Positions 18,078-30,041 of a DNA stretch of 64,000 nt are shown here, piece after piece. Location of the stretch: contig LGRD01000013.1 in the NCBI GenBank assembly GCA_001263235.1, positions 1 through 64,000 of the forward strand, read 5' to 3'. The DNA comes from Methylibium sp. NZG (lineage in GTDB: Bacteria; Pseudomonadota; Gammaproteobacteria; Burkholderiales; Burkholderiaceae_C). The position numbers and the translations under genes were made by a program. The notes under the pieces were generated by a model. It saw only the letters and a program-made list of their open reading frames with translations. It did not search any database and was not told the origin of the DNA. Positions within the stretch are counted from its first letter, which is position 1. Each line of letters begins with the position of its first letter.

Positions 18078-19466
18078 CTACTTGACCAGCACCTCGACGC
18101 GGCGCGCCTCGGGGTCTTCGCCGGCCAGGTTGGCCTGCGCCGACTGGGGCTTTTCGAGCACGACGCGGCCTTCGTCGACGCCGGCTGCGGACTTCAGCAC
18201 ATCGCGCACGGCAAACGCGCGCTGCTTGGCGAGTTCCTGGTTGCTCGCCAGTTCGCCACTCGCCGAGTGGTATCCGGAGATGACGAGCCGGGCGGTGGTG
18301 TTGGACTTGAGCGCGTCGAGCAGCGTCTTCAGCCCGGCCTCGGCACCGCCCGGCAATGCCGAGGAGCCGACGCCGAAGTAGACGACGCCGCCCTCGGCCG
18401 TGGACTTCGCCGCGACGTCGGCCGGCTTGGCGCCAGTGCGCAGAAGCTCCGGGTAGTCCTTTGCCATTGCCGCGCCGTACAGCGGCTTGTAGGCGCCCTG
18501 GTGACAGGTGGCGCAGTTGGCCTTGGCCACGTCGCCGTTGGGGCCCAGCCGGTTGGCAGGGAACGCGGCCTGCAGAGGCGTCATGTAGGCGCCGTTCAGG
18601 TCGCCGACCATGCGCAAGCCGTGCCACGCGCTGGCGCGCTGCGGCGGGCTCTGGTCCCATTCGGCAAACGAGCGTGTGTTGTGGCAGTAGGTGCAATTCA
18701 CGCCGAGCGACTGCGACATGTGCATCATCAGCGCATAGGTGTGTTCGGCCTGCTTGGTGGACTTGAGGTTGCCTGTGGGCAAGGCGGTGTCGCCGATCAC
18801 GCGGATGTCGGCACTGGTGTTCGTGCTGGCCTTGTAGATGTACGGCGTGAACGGGTCGTACGGCAGCGACGCGAGCGCGACGCTGGTGGCGGCCTTGTTC
18901 TGCCCGGCGTCGTCGCCGAGCAGGCCGGCGCTGCGCGGGTTCGCCTCCGGGCCGAACCAGATGTTCTGCGGGATGTTGTTGCCGCGATGGCAGGTGTAGC
19001 AGGTGACGCCAGTAGCGCCGACGTGGCTCTTCCAGTCGGCGTTGATGTGCTGCGTCATCTCGGTCATGCGGCGCGCGACGACCTTGGTGTACTTCGAGTC
19101 GTCGGACAGGTCGGCGAGGTTGTGGCAGTAGCCGCAACCTTCGTTGGGCGACACCCATGCGGTGATGGCGGTCATGTGGCGCGTGAACTCGCCTACGCTC
19201 AGGTCGCCCAGCACCTTGACGTTCTTGAACACGTCTTTCGCCTTCGGCCCGTCCGGCGACGCGGCCGGCGTGGCCGCTGGCGCCACGTTGCCGGGCGCCT
19301 GAGCGGCGACGATGCGTGGGTTGTAGACCTGCTCCATGCCGGTGCCACGGAAGCCGCGCTGCACTGCGTCGACCGGCGGTCGTTCGCAGCCGGCCAGCAA
19401 CACCACCGCGCCGACGAGCAGCAAAGAGTATGCAACGCTCATCTTGCGAACCTGCGCCGACTTCAT
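18078..19466 (-). CDS. pufC: Photosynthetic reaction centre tetraheme cytochrome c subunit with C-terminal OmpA-like domain
   Basis: A 462-residue periplasmic lipoprotein that re-reduces the photo-oxidised special pair. A lipobox LAGC places the lipid anchor at Cys27. Four heme-binding motifs are visible: CGYCH 111-115, CYTCH 156-160, CTYCH 258-262 and CATCH 318-322. The normal PufC ends shortly after the fourth heme. Here residues 358-462 add an OmpA-like fold: [35 protein letters not shown] and RRVEVLV. The aspartate of the usual GHTD motif is missing (GYHS), while Arg416 of the second motif is present, so peptidoglycan binding is uncertain. The start overlaps the pufM stop as ATGA, and the gene ends at the operon terminator. 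Confidence 0.96.
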
Positions 19467-20446
19467 GGCTTGACTCCGAGGGACAGCGTGGCAGGGTCGA
19501 TGGTCGGGGCCCACACCGCCGGGTACATCGGCGCGACGCCGTGCTTGACCGCCCACAGGTACCAGTTGTCGACCACCGTGCCGGTGAGCAGGATGCCGAT
19601 GCCGCCGGTCAGCGGGCACAGCACCGCAAACCACCAGGCCCAGCGGTGGATCGACTCCATCGTCGCGTTGAAGCCCATCGTCCAGCGCCAGAACAGCGCA
19701 GCGCGTTCGCTGGCGGTGCCGCGGTCGACGATCTGCTCGATCTCGCGCTCGCCGCCAAAGCGGCTGACCGCCAGGATGGTGGCGCCGTGCATTGCGAACA
19801 GCAGCGTCGAGCCGTACAGGAACGCGATGGACAGCATGTGGAACGGGTTGTAGAACAGGTTGCCGTAGCGGATGCTGAAGGCCGCCGTCCAGTCCAGGTG
19901 CGGGAAGATGCCGAACGGCACCGCCTCTCCCCAGCTGCCCATCAGCACCGGGCGGATCAGGCCGAGCACCAGGAACAACCAGATCGCCGCAGCGAAGGCC
20001 CACGCCACGTGCGTGCCCAGGCCGAGGGCCCGGGCGCGGGTGTACATGCGGGCCCACCACAGCAGCATCGAGATCGTGAGAAACAGGCCTGCGATCTGCC
20101 ACCAGCCGCCCTGGTTCAACGGCGCCAAGCCGAGCCCCCGGCCGGGCGCGGGCGGCTCCAGGGCGAGCCAGAACAACTGGCGGATGAACTGGATCGGGTC
20201 CCAGTTCACCGAGGCCAGCATGTTCAGCCCCATGATGTTGATCGAGAGCACGCCGAAGATCAGCGAGATCACCCCCAGCGAGCCGAGGTAGATCGGCCCG
20301 ATTTGCGCATTGCCGAAGCGGCCGAGCAAGTGGAAGATGCCGGGCTCGGCGCCGGTGCGCGGCGAGTCGATGCGGGGCAGCGCGATGCCGTGGTGCAACG
20401 GGCCGACGGCCTGCACGCGGGTGAAGAGGTTTTGGTATTCGGCCAT
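19463..20446 (-). CDS. pufM: Photosynthetic reaction centre M subunit
   Basis: A 327-residue inner-membrane protein with five transmembrane helices that, with PufL, binds the bacteriochlorophyll special pair, bacteriopheophytins, quinone QA and the non-heme iron. The sequence opens [12 protein letters not shown], as in other type II M subunits, and the helix-D/E histidine regions ([20 protein letters not shown]) are present. An AGGAGACACAGC leader provides a strong ribosome site. It starts 27 nt after pufL and overlaps pufC by 4 nt. Confidence 0.97.
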
Positions 20447-20473: not shown

Positions 20474-21298
20474 TCAGCTCCAGATCGGCAGGTTCAACCA
20501 CCAGCCCCACCACTCGGGCCACCCGCGCGTCCAGAAGGGTCCGCTGATGACGATGCACACGGCGCTGAAGAACACCGCCGCCATCGCCAGAAACAGCCCC
20601 AGGCGGTGAATGCCCAGCGTGCCGATGGAGTAGCCGATCGAGTCGCGGAAGAAGGTGTCCTCGTGTTCGGGCGACTTGATGGTCTGCCCTTTGCCAGGAT
20701 TCACGGAAGACAGCACCAGCCCACCGTGCAGCGACAGCGCGAACACCGTTGTGAAGAAGAAGGTGATCGCCAGCATATGCGCCGGGTTGTAGTGGAAGTG
20801 CAGGTACTGGTAGCCGGTGTTGGACACCCAGTCGAGGTGGCTCATGATTCCGTACGGGAAGCCGTGGCCCCAGGCGCCCATCAGCACGGGGCGGATCACC
20901 ACCAGCGAGATGTACGCAAAGATCGCCATGCTGAAGGCGACCGGCACATGCAGCCCCATGCCGAGCTTGCGACAGATCTCGACCTCGCGCAGCGCCCACG
21001 AGCCGAACGCGCCGATCGCGCAGACGGTGATGAGTTGCCACAGCCCGCCCTCGCGCAACGGCGCCATCTTCAGGCCGTACTTCAAGTCGGGTGGGGCGAT
21101 GTTGATCTGCCACAGGTTCCACACCCCGCTTTGCGCCGTGCTCCACAAGATGAGCATCGTGCCCAGCAGGGTGAAGAAGAGCGTCGTGACACCGAAGAAG
21201 CCGACGTAGAACGGCCCGACCCAGAAGTCGAACAGGTCGCCGCCGACCAGGGTGCCGCCACGGACGCGGTACTTTCTTTCAAAACTGAGCATGGCCAT
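20474..21298 (-). CDS. pufL: Photosynthetic reaction centre L subunit
   Basis: A 274-residue five-helix reaction centre core protein. It opens [20 protein letters not shown], the usual PufL N-terminus, and contains [22 protein letters not shown] with the histidines that bind special-pair and accessory bacteriochlorophyll, plus the [11 protein letters not shown] iron-ligand region. An AAGGAG ribosome site lies before ATG 21298. It follows pufA after a 122-nt spacer carrying two hairpins. Confidence 0.97.
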
Positions 21299-21420: not shown

Positions 21421-21621
21421 TTACTTCGCGGCCGGAGCCGTCGCAGGCGCCGGCATCGCCGAGTTCTGCGTGATGGTCTGCCGGGCCTTGGGGCCGTCCA
21501 TCCAGTTGAACGTGTTGGTGCTCAGCAGCACCAGATGGATCATGGCTGCCAAGGCAAACAGGAACACGCCCTGCGCGACGAGCGCACGGAGTGGGTCGAA
21601 CAAACGCCAGACTCTCCACAT
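21421..21621 (-). CDS. pufA: LH1 core antenna alpha polypeptide
   Basis: A 66-residue single-helix protein. It has the canonical opening [17 protein letters not shown], bacteriochlorophyll-ligating His29 in [11 protein letters not shown], and a C-terminal Ala/Pro-rich tail ([10 protein letters not shown]) longer than in many purple bacteria. An AGGAGAGAG ribosome site precedes the ATG and overlaps the stop codon region of the upstream beta-like gene, implying translational coupling. LH1 alpha pairs with beta to form the ring round the reaction centre. Confidence 0.96.
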
Positions 21622-21633
21622 GATTTCTCTCTC

Positions 21634-21864
21634 CTAGGTTAGGTGCGACATGAAGGTGTAGACCGCTGCCTTCACTCCGCCGATCAAAGACTTTTCACTC
21701 TCTGCCCCCGGCAGCCAGGAACGCCACTGCCAATGCCCGACTTGCGCCAGCACGGCAATCAACAAGAACAGAACAAAGCCCACCGCGAAGATCCCGTAGA
21801 AGATCTTGGAGTCGTTCTTCAGCACCTGCTGCAGCGAACGGTTTGTCATGTCAGTCATTTGCAT
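21634..21864 (-). CDS. LH1-beta-like small membrane protein between pufB and pufA, axial histidine replaced by Gln
   Basis: A 76-residue protein with one membrane helix (residues about 22-43). Without gaps, residues 29-51 align with PufB 26-48 at 13 of 23 identical positions, including GFVxF, IAVxA and WxWRxWL. The PufB ligand His38 corresponds to Gln41 here, and the N-terminal His20 position is Tyr23. A 25-residue tail follows WL (PGAESEKSLIGG, then AAVYTFMSHLT) that no LH1 beta I know has. AAGGGGA precedes ATG 21864; an internal ATG at 21858 is also possible. It ends 12 nt before pufA. Probably a diverged beta duplicate acting in LH1 assembly or as a ring gap subunit; PufQ or PufX analogy is only positional and topological. 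Confidence 0.85.
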   Translation of the reverse strand: MQMTDMTNRSLQQVLKNDSKIFYGIFAVGFVLFLLIAVLAQVGHWQWRSWLPGAESEKSLIGGVKAAVYTFMSHLT

Positions 21865-21901
21865 TCCCCTTGTCGGGTCGAACTTGTCAAACAGGTCTAG
21901 C

Positions 21902-21920
21902 GGCTCTGTCGTTCAGAGCC
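21902..21920 (-). promoter_or_regulatory. Hairpin at the 3' end of pufB
   Basis: A perfect 7-bp stem GGCTCTG / CAGAGCC with a 5-nt loop includes the last codons and the TGA of pufB. No T-run follows. It separates pufB from the beta-like gene, so it could act as a processing or stability boundary that sets the ratio of the two products. Confidence 0.7.
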
Positions 21921-22059
21921 AGGGGCGCCAGGCCCAGACGAGGATGTGGGCCACCACGGCGATCGCCGTGAACCCCACGAACCCCTGGACGTAGTACCGG
22001 TGGAACTCTTGCGCCTCGTCGTCCGTCAGGCCGGAGATCGAGCCTTTTCTGTCAGCCAT
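21913..22059 (-). CDS. pufB: LH1 core antenna beta polypeptide
   Basis: A 48-residue gene. The protein opens [20 protein letters not shown] and ends [11 protein letters not shown], a textbook LH1 beta very close to my recollection of Rubrivivax gelatinosus PufB. His38 (VVAH) is the bacteriochlorophyll axial ligand and His20 the second conserved histidine. AAGGAG lies 8 nt before ATG 22059. It is the first puf gene after bchZ, with a 138-nt spacer that contains a GCGGCA-GCC-TGCCGC stem (22125-22139) but no obvious new promoter. Confidence 0.97.
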
Positions 22060-22197: not shown

Positions 22198-23676
22198 TCA
22201 TGCCGGCTCCCCTTGTCTGAGTGCATCGCGCGCACGCGCCACGCGTTCGGCGGTCACGCGCTCTTCGCCCGCGCGCTTGGCGTCGCGCTCGGCGCGGTCG
22301 CGCAAGCGCTTGGCGGCCGAGATCTGCACCAGCACCGGCTCGGTGTCGACGAAGTCGTTGAGCAATTCCTGAGCGTCCATGTCCCACGGGCTGCTGTCTT
22401 CGGCGCCCAGTCGTGCTGGCGTGGGGTCGACACGGTCGAGATCGGTGCCCAGCGGCAGGATGTGGAACAGCGCATCGAACAGCGCGTTGCAGAACTCCTG
22501 CACCAAGTAGGTGGCGCCGGCATAGCCCATGAACGGCGTGCCGGTGTGGCGGCGGATGATCGGCAGCGGAAACGATGCCGGGATGAAGGTGGCCTTCATC
22601 ATCGAACCGCCGCCGCATTCGGCCAGGTAGATGCGCTCGTTGTAGCTGCCGTACATCACCAGCGGCGTCTTCTCTTTGACCAAGCGGCGTACGTCGGCGT
22701 TGTCGGTCTTCTCGCCGGGCTTGCGCGCCACCGCGAAGTTGCACGGCAGGCCGAGCTCGTCTTCGAGGAAGTGACGGATGCCACGCGTGTAGGTTTCGTT
22801 GGCGACGACGGCGAAGCTGGCGGTCCCAAAAAAATCCTGCGTCACCGAGCGCCACAAGTCCCAGATCGGCTTGACCGTGGTGTGTTTTTCGCGCTCGATG
22901 AAGGGCTCGGGATTCAACCCTGTCAGTTCTCCGAGCTTGCACAGGAAAGCGGATGTGCTGTGCAGGCCGATCGGCGCCTGCAGGTACGGCCGGTCGAGCG
23001 CCTCGCACAGCATGCGGCCGAACTCGCGGTACATGCAGATGTTGACGTCGGCTTCGACCAGGCGCGACACGTCGGCCAGGTGGCTGCCGAGCGGGAACAC
23101 CATGTTCACCTCGCAGCCGATGCCTTGCACAAGGCGGCGGATCTCGGCCAGGTCGCTTGGGCAATTGAAGGTGCCGTAGCTCGGGCCGATGATGTTGACG
23201 CGGGGCTTCTCGCCAGCGGGACGCTCGGCGAAGGGTTTGCGCGCCGGCACCTTCTTGAGGCCGTACTCCGACCACAACCAGAACATCGCGCGGTTGGCGC
23301 ACTGCCACTGGTCTTCGTCGATCGTGCGCGGCAGAAAGCGCTGGATGTTGGTGCCCGACGGCGTGACGCCGCCGCCGATCATCTCGGCGATCGAGCCCGT
23401 CACCACCACCGACGGCAGGTCCGGATCGAGCGCCTTGTGCGCGCGGCGCATCGAGCCTTCGGTGCCTTCGCGACCGAGCTGCTCTTCGGCCAGGCCGGTG
23501 ACGACGACCGGCAACTCGTGGGGGGGGAGCGCGTCGGTGTAGTGCAGCACCGAGGTGACCGGCAGGTTCTCGCACCCGACCGGACCGTCGATCACGACCT
23601 GCAGGCCCTTGATCGCGGTGAAGACGTACACCGCGCCCCAGTAGCCGCCGGCACGATCGTGGTCCAAGACCAACAT
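22198..23676 (-). CDS. bchZ: Chlorophyllide a reductase subunit Z
   Basis: A 492-residue catalytic subunit. BchY and BchZ form the NifDK-like component that, fed electrons by BchX, reduces the C7-C8 double bond of ring B to make the bacteriochlorin. It opens [17 protein letters not shown] and carries the cluster-ligand cysteine region GPVGCENLP, plus the BchZ/BchB-like C-terminal extension. The stop of bchY and the start of bchZ share one base (TGATG). The tail from about residue 455 is charged and helical. Confidence 0.96.
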
Positions 23677-25235
23677 CAGATCGTCTCCTCGGCCTTGCGC
23701 TTCTTCGCGGCCTTCTCGGCCTGGCGGCGCTGTTCGGCCTTGAAGTGCGGGTGGTCCTGCGGCACACCATTGGCGCTTTCCCACACACCAGTGGCGTGGC
23801 CGGTGCCGACCGCGCCGAAGAAGTCCTTCATCTGGTCGAAGCGGGTCTTGTTGCCGATCGCCGCGTTGATGACGGTGGCCAGCGAGCCGGCGCCGGCCGG
23901 GCCCATCAGCGGGCGGGCCGAGATCAGGTTGGTGAAGTACAGCGACGGGATGCTGAGCTCCTTGGCGGCCTGCACGACGGGCGTGGTGCCGATGGCCACG
24001 TCGGGCTTGAACTCGTGCACCGCCGCCAGGTCTTGTTCGAGCGAGGCGCGGAATTGCACCTGCACGCCTTTGGACTCCAGCCACTGCACGTCGGCCTCGT
24101 TCCAGGCCGTGCGCGGGCAGGCGCTGCCGACGTAGCGCAGGTCGGCGCCACTTTCGACCAGCAGCCGGCCGACGAGCAACTCCGAACCTTCATAGCCGCT
24201 CAGCGTGACTCGACCTTTGATCGGCGTCTTCGCGAGCGCGCCGCGGATGGCGGGCAGAAACTTGTTCTTCGCCGCGTCGATCTTGTCTTGCGCGATGTTG
24301 GTGGCGTTGCCGATCGCCTGCAGCCAGGCTTCGGTGCCGTCGTGGCCGACCGGTGCGGAGCCGACCACCGTGCGGCCGGCCGCGTCGAACTCGCGGATGC
24401 TCGCCGTGTAGAACGGGTGGATCGCGGCGACCGCGGCGCAGTCGAGCGCGGCATACAGCTCGCGCCATTCGCGTGTGGGCACCACAGGGCCGGCGGCCAG
24501 GCCCATCGGCTCCAGCATCATGCCGATGATCACGGGGTCGGCCGGGAACATCTCGCCGAGCAGCGTGATCGTGGGCTTTTCAGAGCGGCCAGCGCGCGGC
24601 GCCTGCACCGGGCCGGCCAGCACTTCGCTGCGCGCGTACTTCAGCATCGCGCCAGCGAGCACATCTTTCGCTTCGGCATGCGTTGGCACACCGAAGCCCG
24701 GCACGTCGATGCCGATGATGCGCACGCCGTTGATCTCTTTGGGCAGGATCTGCAGCGGCACGCCGCTGGCGGTCGGCACGCACAGGTTGATGATGACGAT
24801 GGCGTCGTAGTTGGCCGGGTCGGCCTGCTTATAGACCGCCTCGCGGATGTCTTCGAACAGCTTGCCGGTGACCAGGCTCTCACTGTTGAACGGCACGTAG
24901 CCGACGCTGCGCTTGGCGCCGTAGAAGTGCGACGTGAACGTCAAGCCGTAAACACAGCACGCCGAGCCCGACAAGATGGTCGCGGTGCGGCGCATGCGCA
25001 ACCCCACGCGCAGCGAGCCGAACGCGGGGCACATGCTTTGCGGCTGGTCGTGCGGGCCGGCTTTGTCGTTCTTCGGGTAGTCCTGCGCGTACTGCGCGAG
25101 CACCTCCGACTTGCCGGCCGATTTGGCGGCCGCGAGCATCGCCTCGCCGCCCGAGTGGCAGCCCATGCCGTCGCCTTCCAGCGCCGTCTTGATCGGCGCG
25201 GCGGGCATCGGGATGATGGGGATGGTGGTGCTCAT
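23676..25235 (-). CDS. bchY: Chlorophyllide a reductase subunit Y
   Basis: A 519-residue NifD-like partner of BchZ. Cysteines for the shared 4Fe-4S cluster are seen in [19 protein letters not shown] and [13 protein letters not shown] 25235 gives the N-terminus [14 protein letters not shown]; an ORF extension upstream overlaps bchX and is not needed. bchX ends 31 nt before it. The last residues are charged ([14 protein letters not shown]). Confidence 0.96.
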
Positions 25236-29659: not shown

Positions 29660-29812
29660 ATGTCTGACCCGAACAAGGTGTGGCCCACGGGCTTGACCGA
29701 GGCCGAATCGGAAGACCTGCACCGTCACATCATCCAGGGCACGCAAATCTTCGGCGCCATCGCGGCGCTGGCGCATTTGCTGGCCTACATCTATTCACCC
29801 TGGCTGCGCTAA
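29660..29812 (+). CDS. pucB: LH2 peripheral antenna beta polypeptide
   Basis: A 50-residue antenna protein. It contains KVWPTGLTEAESEDLH, with His21/His23 in the cytoplasmic segment, and bacteriochlorophyll ligand His39 in AALAHLLAYIYSPWL. A strong AGAAGGAGA ribosome site precedes ATG 29660; a longer in-frame ORF upstream is ignored. It is followed by pucA after 19 nt. Confidence 0.96.
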   Translation: MSDPNKVWPTGLTEAESEDLHRHIIQGTQIFGAIAALAHLLAYIYSPWLR

Positions 29813-29831
29813 CCGATAAGGAGATCGAAAC

Positions 29832-30041
29832 ATGATCTACGGAAAACTCTGGTTGGTGGTGAAGCCGTCCGTCGGCATTCCGCTGTTCCTGGGCGCCGTG
29901 GCGGTGAGTTCGTTCGCCGTTCACTACGCCCTGCTGACGCACACCACCTGGCTGCCCAAGTACTACGAGGGCGGTGCGGCGGTCAAGAAGGCCGCAGTGC
30001 CGACCGACACGGTGGTGGCGGTCGCTCCACCACAGAAGTAG
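29832..30041 (+). CDS. pucA: LH2 peripheral antenna alpha polypeptide
   Basis: A 69-residue single-helix protein, opening MIYGKLWLVVKPSVGIPLFL and with ligand His31 in FAVHYALLTHTTWLPKYY. The C-terminus is extended by an Ala/Val/Pro-rich tail, like PufA in this genome. TAAGGAGA lies 9 nt before the ATG. PucA and PucB form the peripheral antenna ring. Confidence 0.95.
   Translation: MIYGKLWLVVKPSVGIPLFLGAVAVSSFAVHYALLTHTTWLPKYYEGGAAVKKAAVPTDTVVAVAPPQK

Follow-up and report, generated by a model that had tools for sequence, protein, structure and literature searches.

What is encoded by the small gene that separates pufB and pufA in the puf operon of Methylibium sp. NZG? The gene, termed X below, was analysed in a window of 64,000 nucleotides (the whole stretch of contig LGRD01000013.1 under study) and is known in Rubrivivax gelatinosus as ORF2 and in Roseateles depolymerans as ORF74. 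The best explanation of the sequence comparisons is that X would be a conserved single-helix membrane protein of an LH1-beta/PufQ superfamily, one that has lost the bacteriochlorophyll ligand. What is new, and the main result of the analysis, is the relation of X to both LH1-beta and PufQ.

Position, spread and conservation of X

The genes bchZ, pufB, X, pufA, pufL, pufM and pufC follow one another in this order on the minus strand. bchZ (22198..23679) was recognised by locus comparison and is followed after approximately 140 nt by pufB (21913..22059), which encodes a short form of LH1 beta of 48 residues ending in WRPWL and carrying His38 (Pfam LHC, E=2.3e-14; NCBIfam NF040862, E=2.9e-25). 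An ORF at the pufQ position was looked for in this gap in the window, and none was seen. pufA (21421..21621), encoding LH1 alpha, was matched by Pfam LHC (E=1.4e-11) and NCBIfam NF040861 (E=6.7e-18). The reaction centre genes pufL (20474..21298) and pufM (19463..20446) were identified from their translations, pufL also as a homologous block in all compared loci and pufM also by locus comparison. The translation of pufC (18078..19466) is a tetrahaem cytochrome with the lipobox LAGC, and its start overlaps the pufM stop. An LH2-type pucB and pucA pair lies inside the photosynthesis gene cluster (window positions 29660-30041, plus strand), with a long C-terminus in pucA.

A sequence-only reading of this DNA had placed X at 21634-21864 on the minus strand between pufB and pufA, with a 12-nt gap to pufA and a ribosome site of its own. 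The frame and the gap were found as described, and the Shine-Dalgarno sequence AAGGGG is present (21866..21871, minus strand). The start was revised: because AAGGGG stands 7 nt before the ATG at 21858 (1 nt before that at 21864), and because the majority of orthologues begin at the ATG equivalent to 21858, X probably occupies 21634..21858 and encodes 74 residues rather than 76.

Of the family, 401 genomes were sampled; a match was obtained in 61, and in 53 of these, NZG counted, X lies between pufB and pufA. The other eight consisted of seven genomes with a long PufB and no X, and one weak match without a puf operon. X is carried by nearly all photosynthetic members of one large betaproteobacterial family, at a distance of 10-17 nt from pufA in all orthologues. 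A scan of 84,980 species genomes matched 182 stretches, of which 80 were kept; these are betaproteobacterial by label, bar a few oddly labelled metagenome bins, and include Rubrivivax gelatinosus, R. benzoatilyticus, Roseateles depolymerans, Rivibacter, Piscinibacter and Aquincola. Values of pN/pS for X were 0.10-0.25 (four groups with at least three pairs), within the range of pufA and pufB, and point to purifying selection. Absence of the gene from close relatives together with relaxed selection had been proposed as grounds for dismissing X; the 53 genomes and the low pN/pS speak otherwise. X is a gene conserved across relatives and no oddity of NZG.

The position of the axial ligand is occupied by Gln in 37 of the 53 proteins and by Ala, Thr, Lys, Leu, Cys, Gly or Ser in the rest, and never by His, so that the ligand loss noted earlier in NZG extends to the whole family. 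G53 and V64 are invariant, and W47, R48, P52, A54, E55, V68, Y69, T70 and S73 nearly so. With the axial His absent throughout and these C-terminal residues near-invariant, conservation has moved away from the pigment site and into the C-terminal segment.

X is already on record. According to a later paper citing Nagashima et al. 1994 (PMC12817894), the puf operon of R. gelatinosus contains two ORFs without a known function, one of them, ORF2, located upstream of pufA; ORF2 was there aligned with PufA rather than PufB, and low identity and lack of His were given with no further relation drawn. ORF74 of Roseateles depolymerans (locus tag RS05155, between pufB RS05150 and pufA RS05160) is transcribed together with pufB and pufA as part of the major 1-kb puf mRNA, and under carbon starvation the changes were largest for these three genes, whose transcripts were among those with the strongest induction (PMC10037100). 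The X orthologue is the ORF immediately before pufA in the genomes of DSM 1709 and depolymerans, with 74 residues in both; ORF2 and ORF74 are therefore the same gene as X, and no function was given for either. What kind of protein it encodes had gone unrecognised in the literature reached: neither ORF2, ORF74 nor PufQ was linked to LH1-beta in the papers found, through which the primary descriptions of ORF2 and ORF74 are known, and a search of titles and abstracts gave no paper stating a relation of PufQ to LH1 beta. Neither detection of the X protein nor an X mutant was found in the literature search. Roseateles ORF77, located between pufM and pufC, was considered as a PufX candidate and set aside as an Arg-rich frame without an obvious helix.

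Relationship to LH1-beta and PufQ

In the ungapped 23-residue comparison of PufB and X (one row, GFVLFLLIAVLAQVGHWQWRSWL), the 13 identities reported earlier were reproduced, as was the pairing of PufB His38 with Gln41 of X. A phmmer search of the PDB with X returned the LH1-beta chains 8z81_B (E=1.8e-10) and 7xxf_B (E=2e-9). The X profile matched LH1-beta chains down to E=1.3e-16, with matches other than LH-beta only at E 2.8 or worse, and no PDB chain was an X orthologue. Pfam LHC (PF00556) gave no match to X of the window, and the NCBIfam pufB model NF040862 gave E=2e-5 (24.4 bits, under its cut-off of 61). X has no Pfam or NCBIfam model of its own; weak transmembrane matches to DUF2567 and YdcZ, below cut-off, were set aside as composition. 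For profile-profile comparison with hhalign, E-values refer to single comparisons, and the control relied on was a set of 60 shuffles in which the transmembrane columns were kept. X and PufB were aligned at 99% with a score of 87.9 (shuffle maximum 27.1), which is more than chance and shows X to be homologous to LH1-beta. As a relative of PufA, X scored 20.1 and was matched or beaten by 2 of the 60 shuffles, that is, at shuffle level, and this candidate was rejected.

X and PufB have in common a single helix, the A-x-x-x-Q/H position and the W-R-x-W-L-PG segment. X differs from PufB in its own conserved C-terminus, in the axial His (invariant in 49 PufB, absent in 53 of 53 X) and in the N-terminal SGLTxxEAxEFH, which is near-invariant in the aligned PufB and missing from X; this last difference makes it doubtful that X simply takes the place of beta in an alpha-beta pair. 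The C-terminal extension, earlier taken to be foreign to LH1 beta, proved not to be so. One is also present in 8z81_B (...WRPWIPGAEGYGSVIEGV...), 7xxf_B, 9m8m_B, L193, the X-less relatives and alphaproteobacterial PufB, mostly with the motif PG-x-x-GY. A lone LH-beta-like ORF with the His kept and a long C-terminus was observed in a gammaproteobacterial genome (L148:1396-1674, minus strand, genome G677); puf or bch genes were not recognised in its 3.1-kb surroundings.

In some genomes of Alpha- and Gammaproteobacteria, searches with the X profile recovered not only PufB but also another ORF, located in every case between bchZ and pufB, where pufQ lies. Thirteen of these PufQ-like proteins (L145-L147, L193-L206) were assembled as set A4. 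Their C-termini share a segment of the type S[VI]xxEA[KR]xxAxxxxPFxFM. In hhalign comparisons the set matched X at 98.2% (score 71.1, over 60 residues), PufB at 98.0% (66.9) and Rhodobacteraceae PufQ at 86.7% (32.8), none of these scores being reached by any of 60 shuffles; the PufA control was near shuffle level. Pfam PufQ matched three of the proteins below cut-off (E 0.0014-0.076) and was the best match of some rows. LH1-beta chains came first when the A4 profile was run against the whole PDB (6.2e-9), and the A4 HMM recovered 10 of 10 PufQ ORFs from a background of 16,012 six-frame ORFs (E 0.001-0.04). These comparisons indicate that the PufQ-like ORFs upstream of pufB are homologous to X and to LH1-beta. 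PF05398 covers mainly the Rhodobacteraceae type of PufQ, and the wider alpha- and gammaproteobacterial group falls below its cut-off.

Direct membership of X in PufQ was ruled out. PF05398 did not match X (its genome-wide best was 14 bits, at another site), and the direct comparison with the Rhodobacteraceae PufQ profile gave a weak 40%. PufB and PufQ gave no match in direct profile comparison, and the Rhodobacteraceae PufQ profile matched no LH chain in the PDB; the chain from PufQ to LH1 rests therefore on the PufQ-like intermediates. X and PufQ are both small puf-operon proteins with one helix and a conserved C-terminus, and X differs in its operon place (between pufB and pufA rather than between bchZ and pufB), in the lack of a match to the PufQ model, in its PG-AE motif and in the absence of the ferrochelatase features considered below. 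The sequence-only reading would have given up its claim had X matched PufQ with no affinity to LH1 beta. The outcome was mixed, with no Pfam PufQ match and with PufQ-like ORFs that match X and themselves match LH1-beta.

An unrooted tree was built from 75 columns of X, LH beta chains, PufQ and PufQ-like rows. X formed one clade (95/87) and all LH beta chains another (95/97), and the two together were split from PufQ and the PufQ-like rows (98/95). X was thus placed outside all sampled LH beta chains, between these and the PufQ-like proteins. The PufQ-like row closest to X and LH beta was L146 (L146:1015-1329, plus strand, genome G425, Gammaproteobacteria), an ORF that keeps the axial His (AHFMPKKW) and stands between LH1-beta and PufQ. 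X had earlier been called a diverged duplicate of PufB. The affinity to LH1-beta stands, and the tree does not favour a recent duplication of betaproteobacterial PufB, although a sister relation of X to the long betaproteobacterial PufB was not rejected in the AU test (p=0.51; X with all betaproteobacterial PufB, p=0.11).

Possible roles of X

Distances among X proteins track those of PufA and PufB once BchZ is accounted for (partial r 0.56 and 0.50), and still do so after PufL is also added (0.36 and 0.26). In one clade (L046, L054, L057, L058, L059, L061) PufA, with an insert ...NxWHPD..., and PufB are strongly diverged, as is X, and BchZ is not more distant. The co-divergence could also stem from the puf block being exchanged in one piece. 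PufB is short in all X-bearing genomes of the family; the seven X-less genomes (L044, L048, L049, L050, L051, L053, L056) have a PufB of 76-77 residues with a PG-x-GY extension, and no PufQ-like ORF was recognised at their pufQ position. The association of short PufB with X may rest on one event, because the long PufBs form one clade. AlphaFold2 modelled X as a long helix with a further helix at residues 59-75 with moderate confidence (mean pLDDT 67), and a Foldseek search with this model gave no fold match. The net charge of the helix flanks was -0.4 on the N-terminal and +0.8 on the C-terminal side, which favours neither topology clearly. The C-terminus of LH1-beta lies in the periplasm; that of PufQ is predicted to be cytoplasmic (PMC5725709).

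The role tentatively preferred, at somewhat less than even confidence, is that of an accessory subunit in the RC-LH1 core that has no pigment ligand. The homology to LH1-beta, the fixed place and spacing and the low pN/pS count for it, as do the presence of X in the LH1 mRNA, the co-divergence with PufA and PufB (including the diverged clade with its ordinary BchZ) and the short PufB of all X-bearing family genomes. The ferrochelatases count for it too. PufQ of Rhodobacter sphaeroides binds ferrochelatase and diverts porphyrin flux to bacteriochlorophyll (PMC5725709), and ferrochelatase tyrosines common to PufQ-bearing genomes are missing in four X-bearing genomes; Y58 of that paper would correspond to either of two shared tyrosines, both absent in the four. 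The missing SGLTxxEAxEFH, the lack of an X orthologue among PDB chains and the moderate AlphaFold2 model with no fold match count against a resident subunit, as does the close likeness of X to the PufQ-like ORFs (98%), which fits a transient factor as well. Such a factor would be the betaproteobacterial counterpart of PufQ, placed between the LH1 genes, serving assembly or pigment supply while LH1 is made and absent from the finished complex. That X may be this counterpart follows from the homology of the PufQ-like ORFs to X and LH1-beta, and we consider this reading nearly as likely as the resident subunit. The ORFs between bchZ and pufB match both X and PufQ above all shuffles, some of them having Pfam PufQ as their best match below cut-off; X and an ORF at the pufQ position are mutually exclusive among the sampled genomes; and X is conserved in its C-terminus, as is reported for PufQ. 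It is opposed by the failure of the PufQ model to find X, by the 40% with the Rhodobacteraceae profile, by the closer match of X to LH1-beta, by the ferrochelatase tyrosines, by the place of X in the abundant LH1 mRNA, and by its co-divergence with PufA and PufB rather than with BchZ.

Replacement of beta by X in at least one alpha-beta pair, with bacteriochlorophyll held via Gln41 or a water molecule, is improbable. The axial Gln of 37 proteins, Ala37 and the retained W-R-x-W interface would suit it, but the axial residue varies widely in the other X, the N-terminal segment conserved in PufB is lost, and the helix contains no other conserved His. That X is a duplicate in decay or without function, or a chance ORF acting as a mere translational spacer, is refuted by selection and conservation and is given almost no weight: only the small size and the lack of a family model favour it, against 53 genomes with two invariant and several near-invariant C-terminal residues, a pN/pS well below 1 and an induced transcript in Roseateles (PMC10037100). 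The probability left by these four readings falls to something else.

As an accessory subunit of the core, X would insert as one transmembrane helix followed by the short C-terminal helix. The beta-like helix would lie alongside LH1, and binding to a partner would fall to the conserved C-terminal segment (PGAE...V..AVYTFMS). With the topology of LH1-beta, this partner might be the reaction centre, the C-terminus of alpha or the cytochrome. In so doing X could shape or open the LH1 ring, and a role as quinone gate would be a fair guess. PufX and protein W, to which X had been likened, resemble it by role only, as accessory RC-LH1 membrane proteins, and no sequence relation is shown; pufX follows pufM, unlike X between pufB and pufA, and protein W has three helices (PMC7806223), unlike the single-helix X. 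A broader reading, which we regard as speculative when taken as a whole, is that LH1-beta, PufQ and X form one superfamily in which an antenna helix was turned into ligand-free helpers, with the PufQ gene ahead of pufB in Alpha- and Gammaproteobacteria and the X gene separating pufB from pufA in Burkholderiales, and that X in the RC-LH1 core interrupts the ring and sets the quinone exit.

X lies in the middle of an operon of the best-studied photosynthetic type, also in R. gelatinosus, and the record found has listed it since 1994 as an ORF whose function is unknown. As a subunit of the core complex, X would be a single-helix LH1 member that descends from beta itself. Should it be the counterpart of PufQ, then PufQ would be an altered antenna helix, and the coupling of pigment supply to antenna assembly could be approached from this structure. 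Both readings can be tested in organisms that are grown in the laboratory.
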